From positions 1 to 33,914 of the IMG/VR virus record IMGVR_UViG_3300045912_000395: a stretch of 33,914 nt of DNA. The stretch is one strand, 5' to 3'. The first letter of the stretch is position 1; the number at the start of each line of letters is the position of its first letter. The stretch is from a virus. Below the pieces are notes generated by a model. It was not told the origin of the DNA, made no database searches, and worked only from the letters and a program-made list of their open reading frames with translations. Both the position numbers and the translations under genes were made by a program. Below, piece by piece: positions 26,289-31,971 of this stretch.

Positions 26289-26492
26289 TCAATCGTTGCC
26301 GTCCCCGTACCCGTACCCGTACCCGGACCCATCGCTGAACCCGTACCCGGAACCGTAACCGTCTCCGTACCCGGACCCGTCTCCGGACCCATTTCCAGGC
26401 CCATTTCCAGACCCGGCTCCGTACCTATCTCCGGGTCCGGAGCCATTTCCAGGCCCATGTGAATCGCCGCAACTGAGATCATGCAGGGTCAT
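26289..26492 (-). CDS. Gly-X dipeptide repeat protein
   Basis: 67 residues from ATG 26492, with GGAG 6 bases upstream (GTG 26504 would add four). After MTLHDLSCGDSHGPGN the chain is nearly all Gly-X dipeptides with X = Tyr, Ser, Asn, Asp or Pro, ending GYGYGYGDGND. Such chains are flexible and low-complexity. Function unknown. The DNA is a degenerate 6-bp repeat, so copy number could vary. It lies between replication genes and a methyltransferase remnant. Confidence 0.55.
   Translation of the reverse strand: MTLHDLSCGDSHGPGNGSGPGDRYGAGSGNGPGNGSGDGSGYGDGYGSGYGFSDGSGYGYGYGDGND
26300..26458. repeat. Degenerate 6-bp tandem repeat (CCGTAC/CCGGAC class)
   Basis: The plus strand shows a run of hexamers such as CCGTAC, CCGGAC, CCATTT and CCAGGC, each starting CC, over about 160 bases. 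Read leftward they code Gly-X pairs. The best-conserved copies are at 26303-26330 (CCGTAC three or more times). Variation between copies is mostly in bases 3-6. It is entirely inside the Gly-rich gene. Confidence 0.75.
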
Positions 26493-26534: not shown

Positions 26535-27140
26535 CTACGCGGCATCCTGGTTTCCTGGAAGATAAAGCTTCGGTTCGCTCTCAACTCGGCACGACCGGGC
26601 GAACTCATCCCATTGCTCCCAGTCCTGCCGTGGCGCAAACACCCCCTCGATCAGCTCGGCGGGGTCGTATCCCGCAGACGCGAAATCTCTGCTCGCCTGC
26701 ATCGTCATCGATTTGCGGTACCCGGCGGTTTGTCTCTCGATGAACTCCGCGCGATCAGATTCCGGCATGAACTCCAGTACCGGACGGAGATTGCCCATCA
26801 CGCTGAGCCACCAGATTCCTCGATGCCACCACAGAATCGCGGCGGATTCCGGCAGTCCGTTCAACTTCGGGTTCACGCGAACTGCAGACCTCGCGATCGA
26901 TGTCTTGTAGGGCGACTCCCGACGAGTGACGTGGCTCTGCGAGACGGGCCGAAGATTCTTGGTCAGGTCGAACAGCCTCGGCTTGTATCTCGAAGCAATC
27001 TTGAACTCCGACATAGCGGCGAGGACTTCGTCCGCCGGGTACGGTTCGAGTCGTCGCACCATTTCCGCAACGATCTCCTCGTCCATTTTCCACCAGGAGA
27101 TCATCTTCGCTGCTATCTCGCTCCGCTGTTCACTGGTCAT
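26535..27140 (-). CDS. Hypothetical replication-region protein
   Basis: 201 residues. ATG 27140 overlaps the stop of the replication gene by ATGA, and GGAGG lies about 10 bases upstream. The N-terminal half is helical and charged (SEIAAKMISWWKMDEEIVAEMVRRLEPYPADEVLAAMSEF); the middle has ILWWHRGIWWL. I see no ATPase motif, so it is not an obvious helicase loader, although position next to an initiator-like gene would suit a loader or accessory role. Confidence 0.6.
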   Translation of the reverse strand: MTSEQRSEIAAKMISWWKMDEEIVAEMVRRLEPYPADEVLAAMSEFKIASRYKPRLFDLTKNLRPVSQSHVTRRESPYKTSIARSAVRVNPKLNGLPESAAILWWHRGIWWLSVMGNLRPVLEFMPESDRAEFIERQTAGYRKSMTMQASRDFASAGYDPAELIEGVFAPRQDWEQWDEFARSCRVESEPKLYLPGNQDAA

Positions 27141-27910
27141 CTGGGATCATCCTCCACCAACGCCATCACTCGCGCGACCTTTCGGCTGAGTTCTTCCGTC
27201 TCGATCTCCGCGCTGGTTCTCCTGCCACGCATCACCTCCAGCGCGTATTCGATGGGGTGACTTTTCCCCCTGTCGGAAGATTCCTGGATCAGCGTCTTGG
27301 TCGCATCGAACCCGATCTCCGCAATCATCCCGGCGATCTTCCGCTGCTGCGCGGGGCCGACGTTTGCCACGTTTGGCAGCATCGCAACCAAGCGGTTCAC
27401 CTCCGACTCCATCACCTCGTCGTGGTTACTCCCACCCCCCGGGGGGGGTAGGGGGGGATCCGAAGATGAAGATGAAGATGAAGATGAAGGGGTTGGCTGA
27501 CCCTTGGACTGACCCTTAAGGGGGGGGGTTGGCTGACCCTTGGACTGACCCTTAAGGGTCGGGTTCCCACCTCGACGGCCGGCGTCGGCACAGAGCATGC
27601 GCTTGTGTTCATCGCGAACCATTCGCCGACAGTAGATTGCTCCAGATTGATTCCGGCTGACCACCGTCTTTTCGACCAGTTCAACGATGCATGCGAGCGT
27701 CACGTCCTTGTCTCCGCCGACCGCCTGGGCGATTTCATCGTCTGTCCAAGCGCGTCCCGCAGTCGCAAGCACACCTCGCTCGTCACACTCGAACATCAAA
27801 CACAACATGTCTATGTAGACCCCTTTCGCCGCGTGGCTGCACCTCCTTAGCGACGGCTCCTTCATCCAGTCGCCCGGGTAAAATTGGAAGCTCGGCAGCT
27901 TAGATGCCAT
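27137..27910 (-). CDS. Replication protein with winged-helix-like N-domain and repetitive linker
   Basis: 257 residues from ATG 27910, after AAGGGGGAG. Residues 3-115 (KLPSFQFYPGDWMKEPSLRRCSHAAKGVYIDMLC..., then DDEIAQAVGGD and GAIYCRRMVRDEHKR) follow the pattern of DUF1376-like phage replication proteins, which have winged-helix DNA-binding folds. The middle is a linker: a 12-residue LKGQSKGQPTPP repeat, nine Ser, then PPLPPPGGG. The C-terminal part is helical (QQRKIAGMIAEIGF... HPIEYALEVMRG). It likely starts phage replication. The homopolymer-rich linker DNA is a slippage hotspot. Confidence 0.65.
   Translation of the reverse strand: MASKLPSFQFYPGDWMKEPSLRRCSHAAKGVYIDMLCLMFECDERGVLATAGRAWTDDEIAQAVGGDKDVTLACIVELVEKTVVSRNQSGAIYCRRMVRDEHKRMLCADAGRRGGNPTLKGQSKGQPTPPLKGQSKGQPTPSSSSSSSSSDPPLPPPGGGSNHDEVMESEVNRLVAMLPNVANVGPAQQRKIAGMIAEIGFDATKTLIQESSDRGKSHPIEYALEVMRGRRTSAEIETEELSRKVARVMALVEDDPR
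27435..27556. repeat. Compound simple repeat inside the replication gene
   Basis: Contains C6 (27435-27440) joined to G8 (27441-27448), G7 (27451-27457), (GAAGAT)4.7 at 27462-27489, two identical 30-bp copies at 27491-27520 and 27527-27556 with 36-bp period, and a G9 run at 27520-27528. The 36-bp period keeps frame (12 codons). The homopolymers do not, so slippage there would shift the frame. Confidence 0.85.
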
Positions 27911-27933
27911 CACTCCCCCTTGATCCCTTCAAT

Positions 27934-28140
27934 CCGACAAGGCTCTGACAAGCGCAGGCCCGGCCAACGTCCGAACGCGCCGGATCGAAGGCGGGTCTGA
28001 GCTGGATTTCCGCCATGATTCCGCCGCATCCACAGCGGACCGAAGAACTCATAATCCCTTGGTTCTCGGTTCGAATCCGAGCGGGCCCATCGAGAGATTC
28101 CGACTTTTCGGGTTGCCAGCCGACAAGGATTCTGACAAGG
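27934..28140. other. attP: tRNA-Met 3' half core with flanking arm-type sites
   Basis: The core 28048-28089 equals the 3' half of a tRNA gene: anticodon loop CTCATAA (anticodon CAT at 28050-28052), T-stem CTCGG/CCGAG (28065-28069/28077-28081) around TTCGAAT, acceptor CGGGCCC (28082-28088). The 5' half (D-arm, matching acceptor) is absent. Direct repeats CYGACAAGS lie on both sides: 27934 and 27945 on the left, 28120 and 28132 on the right, with 11- and 12-base spacing. They fit integrase arm sites. Arms on both sides of the core mean a phage attP, not a prophage end. Confidence 0.8.
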
Positions 28141-28148
28141 TTTCGGCC

Positions 28149-29351
28149 ATGCGACAGCTCACCCTCAGGCTCTGCAAACGCAAGGACGGCCGCTACTGCA
28201 AGTGGATAAACGGCCGAATGGTCTACTTCGGTCGCGACGAGAGACTGGCTCGCGCCATGCTCCTCGACCTGGTGCGACGACAGACCCTCGGACACCTCGA
28301 GCCCGACCAGCAGGTGCCGCTCCACGAGCTGGCCGATCATTATCACGCGGCCTGCCAGTTGCGGATTTCCGACGGCACGATGCAGGCCAGGACGCTCGAC
28401 GACTACACCGGCGCAATCCGCGAGTTCCTGCGATCCGTCGGGCGAACGCGACTGGTCTCCAGTCTGGGCGCGGACGATTTCTCGCTGTTCAGATCTGCGC
28501 TCGCCCGGAGGCTCGGGTGCTACGCTCTCGATCGTAACATTGTCTCGATCCGTCGCATGTTCCGCTGGGCCGCCGAGAACCGCGTCATCGACCGCGAACC
28601 GATCTATGGCTCCGGCTTCCGCGTCAGCAGCAGGGCCGACAAGCGATTCGCGCAGGCAAAGCACGAGTCCGATCACGGCCCTCGCGTGTTCAACCTCCCC
28701 GAAATCGACGCGATCCTCGACGCGGCCAGGGAGCCCATGCGGACCATGATCCTGCTCGGACTGAACTGCGGCATGTATTCGATCGACTGCTCCGACCTCC
28801 TCTGGTCGGACATCAGGGAGGTGGACGGCGTGACCATGATCGACCGTCGTCGCGCCAAGACCGGCGTCGTGCAGCGAGCCCCGCTGTGGCCCGAGGTGTT
28901 GCAGTCGCTGGGGATCAGGCGTGTCGGCCGGGTGTTCTCCACGCGACGGGGGAACGCATGGAACCGACGCAACGGCACGGACTCGATCGCGATGGAGTTC
29001 GGCAAGATGCGGCACCGCGCCGGCGTGACGCGGGCAGGTCTGGGGTTCGGCGCGCTGAGGCACACGCACGTCAGCGCGGTCTCCGAGCTCCCCGACATCA
29101 ATGCATGTCGCATGGTTCGGGGCCATCAGATTCTGGGGATCGAGTCGCATTACGATTTTCCGTCCCTGGAGCGATTGCTGGCAGTCACCAGCCACGCGAG
29201 ATCCAAAATCCTCAGAACACCCTCGGCACCGCCCGATGTCTCGCCCTCGTCGTTGCGATCTGCTGCGCTACCGAGCGCAGAGTCCGTCGCCGCAGGTAGT
29301 CATCGAGGGAGTCCTGCGGCACGCGCCACCGACGCCGCACGGTCCCGCTGA
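28149..29351 (+). CDS. int: Tyrosine integrase
   Basis: 400 residues from ATG 28149, with AAGG 8-11 bases upstream. N-terminal arm-binding segment (KRKDGRYCKWINGRMVYFG, 10-28), a core-binding domain, then the catalytic domain. Lys sits in RRRAKTGVV; ALRHTH gives the Arg/His box, MVRGH the third box, and SHYDFP the likely Tyr nucleophile. Where the first catalytic Arg normally lies the sequence is LGLNCGMYSIDCSDLLW, with no Arg. It would recombine attP with tRNA-Met. The right arm sites touch its ribosome site. Its last 140 bases are antisense to xis. Confidence 0.85.
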   Translation: MRQLTLRLCKRKDGRYCKWINGRMVYFGRDERLARAMLLDLVRRQTLGHLEPDQQVPLHELADHYHAACQLRISDGTMQARTLDDYTGAIREFLRSVGRTRLVSSLGADDFSLFRSALARRLGCYALDRNIVSIRRMFRWAAENRVIDREPIYGSGFRVSSRADKRFAQAKHESDHGPRVFNLPEIDAILDAAREPMRTMILLGLNCGMYSIDCSDLLWSDIREVDGVTMIDRRRAKTGVVQRAPLWPEVLQSLGIRRVGRVFSTRRGNAWNRRNGTDSIAMEFGKMRHRAGVTRAGLGFGALRHTHVSAVSELPDINACRMVRGHQILGIESHYDFPSLERLLAVTSHARSKILRTPSAPPDVSPSSLRSAALPSAESVAAGSHRGSPAARATDAARSR

Positions 29352-29454
29352 TCGCGACTGCCGCCAACTCGCCACGGAGACACAGCTTGCGGACGCAGTC
29401 CGCGCTGCATTGCAGTCGTGTGGCGACGTCGTGGATCGTGAGGAGTTCAGGCAT
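29212..29454 (-). CDS. xis: Excisionase-like HTH protein
   Basis: 80 residues from ATG 29454. PELLTIHDVATRLQCSADCVRKLCLRGELAAVAISG... RRRWRVPQDSLDDYLRRR is the MerR-type winged-helix 'helix-turn-helix 17' pattern of excisionases. It is encoded opposite to int and shares its last 140 bases with the int 3' end. It would direct int to excision. It belongs to the leftward early operon that the repressor probably controls. Confidence 0.7.
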   Translation of the reverse strand: MPELLTIHDVATRLQCSADCVRKLCLRGELAAVAISGTVRRRWRVPQDSLDDYLRRRTLRSVAQQIATTRARHRAVPRVF

Positions 29455-29665
29455 CGGTCCCCTGCGGTCCAATCGGCACGTCTGCCCACGCCTGTACCTC
29501 CTGGGGCACGGGAGTTCCGCACGTCCAGCACCACTCCTCTCCGCTCCAGTGACCCGGCCATACCGGCTCCCCGTCAGACTCCGGAACCCATAGCAGGACC
29601 GTGGTGTCGTCATCAGGCATGCGCTCTCGCGGACTCCACCACTGGATTTCCTCCGGTTGTGCCAT
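29447..29665 (-). CDS. DUF551-like small protein
   Basis: 72 residues from ATG 29665, with AGGAG 8 bases upstream. IQWWSPRERMPDDDTTVLLWVPESDGEPVWPGHWSGEEWCWTCG... VQAWADVPIGP follows the W..(x)..P..D..VLLW....W....WA..P layout of DUF551 proteins, small domains common in phage early regions with unknown function. It overlaps xis by 8 bases. A 108-base leader before it to 29773 has no clear gene. Confidence 0.6.
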   Translation of the reverse strand: MAQPEEIQWWSPRERMPDDDTTVLLWVPESDGEPVWPGHWSGEEWCWTCGTPVPQEVQAWADVPIGPQGTDA

Positions 29666-29773: not shown

Positions 29774-31084
29774 TCACTTCGCCACGTCACACCGCTCCCA
29801 GTCGAATCGTCCCTCAGACATCGCGGACAAAATCTCCCGCCGCTTGGTCTCGGATGATCGACGTGATCCAGCGCAGTCGCAGGCAATCTTGAGTTGTCGC
29901 GTCGTGTGCGCGGGATCAAATCCGCCCCGACCGGCGAAGAACGCCACGGCCTCCTGGAACCCACTCCATGACGCCGCGCCGGACTCAATGACGGCCGCGT
30001 CGCCTGAGTCCGGAGCAGGTGGTTCGGGCTCATTAACAGGCACGTCGGCCTGAGCAGAATCCATCGTTTCGACTTCCACCTGCTCGTCCAGGGATTCCGG
30101 CCACTCGACCAGCCCGGTCTCGACAGGCATTGAGTCGTTAGGGTCGATGAGGCCGTAACTCGCCGGCGCAGGCTCTGGTACCGCCGCCGGTTGCGAGGGG
30201 TAAAACTCCTCAGCGATGTCCGCAATTTCCTCCGGCTCCTCCTCGCCAGGTGCCGGCAGAAGCGCGCGGCACTGACGACGCAGTGACTCCACCTGCCGAT
30301 GGAACGTCAGGGCGAACTTCGCCCTATCCATCGCCAGCGTCTGTACCTCGCCGATGTCGCCGCCGACCAGTTCGACGTGGACAACATGGACCGTTGTGGA
30401 TTTGCCCTGAGGCGCGACCTGCTTCGGCCGCACGGTCAGTTGCAGCGGCATTCCGACCAGCACGCCGCCGGTCAACTGGCTGATATGGATCAGCGAACCG
30501 TACATCTGATCGAAACTGATCCGGCTCGTCGTGCGAAACCGATAGACCCCGCCCCAGCGGGCATGTCTTGATGCGATCACGACGTTCAGCACGGCACTGA
30601 GCTTGAGCAGCTTGTTGCCGCGCGAATCCGCCAACTCCAGCACCGATGGATCGTGCTGCTCAGTGCGAGGCTCAGGCAGCCTCTTGCCAGTTTGGGGATC
30701 ATTGAACCACGTCACGGTTTCGCCGTCGGACCTCCCGCCGCACGTCTTGCCGGCATACCAAACCCACGCGGCCTGCAGCACGTCGTCGATGTCGTCGCTG
30801 ATAACGCGGATCGGGAGCCTCCGCAGTTGCCCGTCGGGGTCCGCGTACCCGGACGCGACGAGTTCCTGCATCAGGGACGAGTCGGGAACAAAGTCCCCGG
30901 CCGCATCGCGGTGCATCGTAGTGATCGTGAAATGGTCGTCCTTGCGCGGCAGACGGAATGATCCCCCGGACTGCGTGGGCCTGGATGCCCCGAGTCCGCC
31001 GATCTTGATTTTGCCGAGTTCGGGCATGCGCGGCTTCCCGCCGGCAGTCCCGCTCATCGCGTTCACAATGGTTAGCAGACTCAC
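29774..31084 (-). CDS. Gp3-like (recombination directionality factor family) protein
   Basis: 436 residues from GTG 31084, with AAGGAGGT just upstream and a GTGA overlap with the nuclease gene. Residues about 20-230 (GKIKIGGLGASRP... DDHFTITTMHRDAAGDFVPD, then PIRVISDDIDDVLQAAWVWYAGKTCGGRSDG... TWFNDPQTGKRLP) follow the Gp3-like pattern. That family is known from phiC31 gp3, the directionality factor, and is also widespread in recombination/replication operons. The C-terminal ~150 residues are acidic and Pro-rich. With a tyrosine integrase present, a role in DNA annealing or replication is as likely as directionality. Confidence 0.65.
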   Translation of the reverse strand: MSLLTIVNAMSGTAGGKPRMPELGKIKIGGLGASRPTQSGGSFRLPRKDDHFTITTMHRDAAGDFVPDSSLMQELVASGYADPDGQLRRLPIRVISDDIDDVLQAAWVWYAGKTCGGRSDGETVTWFNDPQTGKRLPEPRTEQHDPSVLELADSRGNKLLKLSAVLNVVIASRHARWGGVYRFRTTSRISFDQMYGSLIHISQLTGGVLVGMPLQLTVRPKQVAPQGKSTTVHVVHVELVGGDIGEVQTLAMDRAKFALTFHRQVESLRRQCRALLPAPGEEEPEEIADIAEEFYPSQPAAVPEPAPASYGLIDPNDSMPVETGLVEWPESLDEQVEVETMDSAQADVPVNEPEPPAPDSGDAAVIESGAASWSGFQEAVAFFAGRGGFDPAHTTRQLKIACDCAGSRRSSETKRREILSAMSEGRFDWERCDVAK

Positions 31085-31971
31085 GCTACCTCCTTGGTTT
31101 CGATCGGGCTTGCGATCGGCTCCGGCTCCCGCGCCCATGCCGGTAGCGACACGCTGATTGCAGTGGGGCAGATTCCCGGCCAAGTCCTCCGCTGCAGGCA
31201 TTGCAGGTGCATCGCGAGGAGTCGCCGATACAGACGCCTGCCGTGCTCCAGCACTTCGTCGTCCATGCGATAGACCAGCACGTCGTAGGGGGGACGATTC
31301 TGAACCGCGATGATGCAGACCGACATTGGGTGCGGCTCCAGCGATTGGACCCCGTCGTGGTACCAGGCCATCTGCCCGTGGTAGGCGTAAGTCGCAACGT
31401 CTCGCTGGAAATCGAATGGGGTCACGGAGCGGGTGGTTTTCAGGTCGAGCAGGCAAAGCACGTCGCCCTTGACCGTGGTGCCGGGATACAACACTTGCGC
31501 GGGGACAAAGCACAGCCTGTCGATCCGACCCTTGCACAGCGAATCTCCGATCCGCCAGACGGCAGAGAGTTCGTTGGTGCCCCGGCCATCGAGTAGCCGG
31601 GATGCGACCGGGTGCTCCCGCGTCGCGGCGACCATGGCGCGAATGGCCACCATTTCGTCTGCCGTCATATGCACGCGGTCTGCGTTGGAGGCGAGCCACG
31701 ACGCCTTGGCGTCCTTGTGTGCGTTGCTGTTGGGATGGCCGTCAAAACGAGGCATGACCGCGTAGTCGGATTCCAGCCGGCCGGGTTCCAGCACGGCGGC
31801 GTGAACGATCTCGCCGAATCGCATGGCGTCGGAGGCGTCCGACGGCTGGAGCATCTCGTTCCGGGCGTTGCGTGCGCTCACGCGATACGGCTCCAGCAGG
31901 TGCCAGTTGATCGCGTCGATGCCCCGATACTCCGCGAAACTCATCCCCCGGTGCGCGCCAGTCCTGTTCAT
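31081..31971 (-). CDS. RecE-like PD-(D/E)XK exonuclease
   Basis: 296 residues from ATG 31971 (ATGA overlap with the 36-codon gene; GGGGGTG upstream). RecE/RecB-type nuclease motifs: GEIVHAAVLEP (His57), GTNELSAVW (Glu134), KGRIDRL (Asp151) and CLLDLKTTR (Asp176-Leu-Lys178), then QRDVATYAYHGQMAWY, the QxxxY-type motif. It should degrade 5' ends to give 3' overhangs for phage recombination. It directly precedes the Gp3-like gene, consistent with an exonuclease/annealing pair. Confidence 0.85.
   Translation of the reverse strand: MNRTGAHRGMSFAEYRGIDAINWHLLEPYRVSARNARNEMLQPSDASDAMRFGEIVHAAVLEPGRLESDYAVMPRFDGHPNSNAHKDAKASWLASNADRVHMTADEMVAIRAMVAATREHPVASRLLDGRGTNELSAVWRIGDSLCKGRIDRLCFVPAQVLYPGTTVKGDVLCLLDLKTTRSVTPFDFQRDVATYAYHGQMAWYHDGVQSLEPHPMSVCIIAVQNRPPYDVLVYRMDDEVLEHGRRLYRRLLAMHLQCLQRRTWPGICPTAISVSLPAWAREPEPIASPIETKEVA

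Follow-up and report, generated by a model that had tools for sequence, protein, structure and literature searches.

A probable complete attP of the tRNA-gene type beside an unusual tyrosine integrase gene in a phage of Phycisphaerae

The tRNA-derived core and its flanking repeats

The DNA analysed here (the window) is the whole of IMG/VR record IMGVR_UViG_3300045912_000395, 33,914 nucleotides in length. At positions 27934 to 28140 a segment derived from a tRNA gene lies between two pairs of short direct repeats. Phage genes occur on either side, with a replisome-organizer-like gene to the left and an integrase gene (int) to the right. The features of the locus are as follows:

27137 to 27913, minus strand: replisome-organizer-like phage gene, left of the site
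27934 to 27942, plus strand: P1 arm-type repeat, CCGACAAGG, 113 bases before the anticodon loop (112 in the G111 attR, see below)
27945 to 27953, plus strand: P2 arm-type repeat, CTGACAAGC, 102 bases before the loop
28047 to 28089, plus strand: attP core, tRNA(CAT) 3′ half from base 31 to the discriminator
28048 to 28054, plus strand: CTCATAA, anticodon loop (bases 32 to 38) and putative 7-bp overlap (crossover) region, from the intersection of the 3′-half and 5′-half att identity blocks
28120 to 28128, plus strand: P′1 arm-type repeat, CCGACAAGG, in a pair with the 12-bp spacing common to relatives
28132 to 28140, plus strand: P′2 arm-type repeat, CTGACAAGG, whose AAGG may double as the int ribosome-binding site
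28149 to 29351, plus strand: tyrosine integrase of 400 amino acids (P0001), with a predicted arm-binding N terminus and a lambda-Int-like fold
29212 to 29613, minus strand: HTH_17 excisionase-like protein, convergent with int, candidate directionality factor

Searches of the GTDB species set recovered the core exactly in three genomes, all of them Phycisphaerae MAGs and in each case within an intact tRNA gene with a CAT anticodon. No match to it was found in viral contigs. Identity between the window and these hosts ends at tRNA base 31 on one side and past the discriminator on the other; the core is identical to one end of a host tRNA gene, as is characteristic of an attP at a tRNA gene. An earlier note on this DNA had described a 42-base 3′ half of tRNA-Met(CAT) and had proposed looking for its intact counterpart in host genomes. 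The 3′ half, the CAT anticodon and the host counterpart were all found, the identical stretch being one base longer, at 43. Its statement that the 5′ half is missing was also confirmed, as ARAGORN found no tRNA in the whole window and no segment of the window matched the 5′ half with fewer than 11/30 mismatches. The assignment to Met, a label that ARAGORN gives to the CAT anticodon, probably does not hold. Two host CAT tRNA genes matched Escherichia coli tRNA-Ile(CAU) at 60/71 and 61/72 positions (core, 36/41), compared to 53/70 and 53/72 for elongator tRNA-Met (core, 31/42), and the core matched initiator tRNA-Met at 30/42. Thus, the target is probably tRNA-Ile(CAU) (tRNA-Ile2).

The CYGACAAGS repeats flank the core as two pairs at precisely the positions first reported for them, spaced 11 bp apart in the left (P) arm and 12 bp apart in the right (P′) arm. 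The window contains five copies of this motif versus 1.14 expected, the fifth residing inside int. A 6-mer paired at 10- to 13-bp spacing on both sides of the core arose in 0/20,000 dinucleotide shuffles, and no second instance of this pair-of-pairs layout was present elsewhere in the window. Arm-type repeats on both sides of a tRNA-derived core are the arrangement that marks the attP of a tyrosine integrase.

The right-hand pair adjoins the start of int, as had been noted; the reported distance of 9 bases is the difference between 28140 and the ATG at 28149, with 8 bases lying between them. No match to a sigma-70-type promoter was found in the attP. Integrases with att sites over their own promoter can repress themselves, as described for KplE1 IntS (PMC2951348). 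From this precedent and the position of the P′ sites beside the int start, autoregulation of int through these sites appears plausible.

Hybrid junctions in a sister prophage and the probable position of crossover

The only supported clade-mate of the window integrase, to which it is about 35 to 37% identical (sisters with 100/100 support), is encoded by a prophage in G111, a MAG from the same family as the three genomes that carry the exact core. Both hybrid junctions of a lysogen were found in this MAG, on two different contigs. At attL, an intact CAT tRNA gene is followed by GTGACAACC and CTGACAACC, 12 bp apart, and int starts ∼110 bases downstream of the tRNA. At attR, CTGACAACC occurs twice and is followed by a lone tRNA 3′ half from base 32 and then by different sequence, apparently host DNA. 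Counted back from the anticodon loop, the P repeats lie at 112 and 102 bases in G111 and at 113 and 102 bases in the window. A search of the family of G111 for an empty site with the same flanks returned none beyond the tRNA itself. The two att hybrids that the earlier note had anticipated do exist, in a relative rather than in this very phage.

The geometry recurs more widely. P′ pairs with 12-bp spacing lie between the tRNA and int in many relatives, and the window, G111 and three other elements all have the inner left repeat 101 to 102 bases ahead of the loop. Fragments of tRNAs are sometimes present in phages, and the core might therefore be a chance fragment, or left over from an old insertion, with no connection to int. 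The 43 exact bases ending at the tRNA end, the flanking arm pairs, the conserved distances and the attL and attR of the sister prophage leave this explanation almost no probability, and it was rejected.

Of 397 Phycisphaerae genomes, 68 encode relatives of P0001, with up to 40% identity across most of the protein, and a tRNA gene lies near most of the loci fetched. Most of these other relatives face the tRNA the opposite way and carry its 5′ half. Both ends could be located for four such 5′-half elements, in which the duplication consists of the tRNA 5′ half and stops exactly at the end of the anticodon loop; three of the four have a CGACAACC repeat on the far arm (102 bases from the loop in two and 101 in the third). 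Because the 3′-half and 5′-half elements share only the 7-bp anticodon loop, the comparison supports the earlier placement of the crossover in this loop. An overlap of seven base pairs is known for tyrosine integrases that act at tRNA genes (PMC8371274). Elements of opposite polarity can thus locate a crossover by comparison alone. The 5′ polarity common in this integrase family is the rarer one overall, with 159 5′-fragment islands and 3760 3′-fragment islands among the 3919 of the Islander set (PMC4383910).

Further loci were observed in the course of this survey. In G001, a lone 44-base 5′ half of the same tRNA gene is followed by MGE-like DNA (L123:1501-1545), and on another contig (L003:5395-6969) an intact copy of the tRNA adjoins an unrelated integrase with a canonical Arg I; GCAGCGCAA-like repeats near both loci suggest the two ends of one 5′-half element at the same tRNA. 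Five viral integrases of the wider family (L076, L079, L083, L085 and L086) have their own direct-repeat motif upstream of int, and L083 appears to show a 5′-half attP.

An integrase family without Arg I and His II

P0001 matches PHROG integrases, and lambda Int is the best structural match to its predicted model (pLDDT 82). Its score against PF00589 is under the family cut-off; the PHROG match, the fold and the catalytic residues identify the gene adjoining the core as that of a tyrosine integrase. Residues 1 to 47 are predicted to form short strands followed by a helix, which we read as a putative arm-binding domain. Searches with patterns derived from the single sequence, and of phage and plasmid collections, revealed no close viral relatives.

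Of the canonical RKHRH-Y residues, Lys, Arg II and His III are retained in 39/39 family members and the nucleophilic Tyr in 38/39. In contrast, Arg I is absent from all 39, being Tyr in the window and G111 and Gly in the 37 others, and His II is replaced by Gly in the window and G111, Tyr in 36 members and Cys in one. In terms of lambda Int, the window integrase has Tyr for R212 and Gly for H308, substitutions that could point to a relic, the attP of a phage whose integrase has lost activity. Yet the whole family is without Arg I while its members show precise att duplications, the G111 sister with the same Tyr and Gly is integrated, and the window protein has kept Lys, Arg II, His III and Tyr. 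We consider a relic very improbable, and with the G111 junctions and conserved distances at hand this reading was discarded. The att duplications in relatives suggest that the family is active and, by extension, that the window copy probably is as well.

A possible substitute for Arg I is an invariant Arg located two residues ahead of the catalytic Lys (R235 in the window). At about even odds, we propose that this Phycisphaerae-associated subgroup works without Arg I and His II, perhaps by means of this Arg, and reads the anticodon stem-loop either way, such that some members restore the 5′ half of the tRNA and others the 3′ half, with the P2 distance staying nearly fixed. How a tyrosine recombinase might catalyse without Arg I thus becomes a testable question.

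The core identity, the arm pairs, the conserved geometry and the hybrid junctions in the relative point to the following route of integration. The integrase would bind the paired arm repeats through its N-terminal domain and be brought to a core formed around the anticodon stem-loop of the CAT tRNA gene, where strands would be exchanged across the 7-bp loop, the cleavage positions being those suggested by the comparison above. On integration, the 5′ half of the host tRNA would be joined to the 3′ half carried by the phage. This would restore the gene beside int (attL) and leave a solitary 3′ half at the opposite end (attR). Excision is probably directed by the HTH_17 protein. The phage also encodes, at 29774 to 31699, a 641-residue protein that matches PF18897, a Gp3-like "recombination directionality factor" family, despite having a tyrosine integrase.

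State of the genome and comparison with known systems

The arms on both sides, the core lacking the tRNA 5′ half, the phage genes flanking the site and the clade-mate prophage with predicted attL and attR all indicate that the record holds attP rather than attL or attR, which bears out the original attP reading. We therefore read 27934 to 28140 as the complete attP of a temperate tailed phage of Phycisphaerae (Planctomycetota), with a probability of about 0.93.

At an integrated junction, the tRNA would be intact on the side of int or host DNA would follow the core, and neither was seen. The record thus has the unintegrated arrangement. The claim that the genome is free holds to that extent; its source could be a circle, virion DNA, a concatemer or a tandem prophage. 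In the last two, attP would lie between two phage copies and the phage need not be free, an arrangement that sequence does not distinguish from a free genome, particularly as the 33,914-nucleotide record has no terminal repeats that would prove a circle. The ORFs scanned included no recognisable host gene, and tandem lysogens are the rarer state; we regard a concatemer or tandem origin as unlikely, and a free, presumably circular, genome as the likely state.

A prophage at G029 C5 324-32116 (L100, L101) has terL, portal, protease and capsid-region genes in common with the window. The 29-bp repeat at its ends, with copies about 31.8 kb from each other, is not a tRNA and is next to a divergent integrase. 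The ends of this prophage were considered as a refutation of the attP and set aside, since the prophage is related by its head genes and has a different integrase, which fits att following the integrase. From its span, the 33.9 kb of the record may be close to the size of the genome. Possible replication-origin iterons occur at 26299 to 26414 (arrays of 12-base units) and at 27462 to 27560, inside the replisome-organizer-like gene (a nearly perfect tandem repeat of 36 bases).

These data assign a likely host family, within Phycisphaerae, to an uncultured phage and supply a phylum that has few genetic tools with a well-bounded attP/int pair. The site is of a known kind, the tRNA type; its integrase subgroup is less ordinary. 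Phage lambda, with its heterobivalent tyrosine integrase and arm-type and core-type sites, resembles the window in having repeats on both arms and in the predicted N-terminal arm-binding domain and fold of Int. Unlike lambda, the window has a core derived from a tRNA, arm repeats paired at 11 and 12 bp, and an integrase in which Arg I and His II are not conserved; moreover, the start of int faces attP, whereas in lambda the far (3′) end does. As in islands at tRNA anticodon loops (subsite A, Islander; PMC4383910), the core runs from the loop to the tRNA end, the 3′ half is restored and int is adjacent, but most relatives of the window integrase restore the 5′ half, as do only 159/3919 islands. 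KplE1 IntS (PMC2951348) likewise has arm sites directly upstream of int, making self-repression conceivable here; promoter overlap and repression are known for KplE1, and the window is likened to it by site position. Finally, in the tyrosine recombinases IntDes and IntCTnDOT, Arg I is shifted or absent, and His II is Tyr in IntDes (PMC8138268); in contrast to these, the window family comprises Phycisphaerae proteins and related viral records and has the invariant Arg before Lys.
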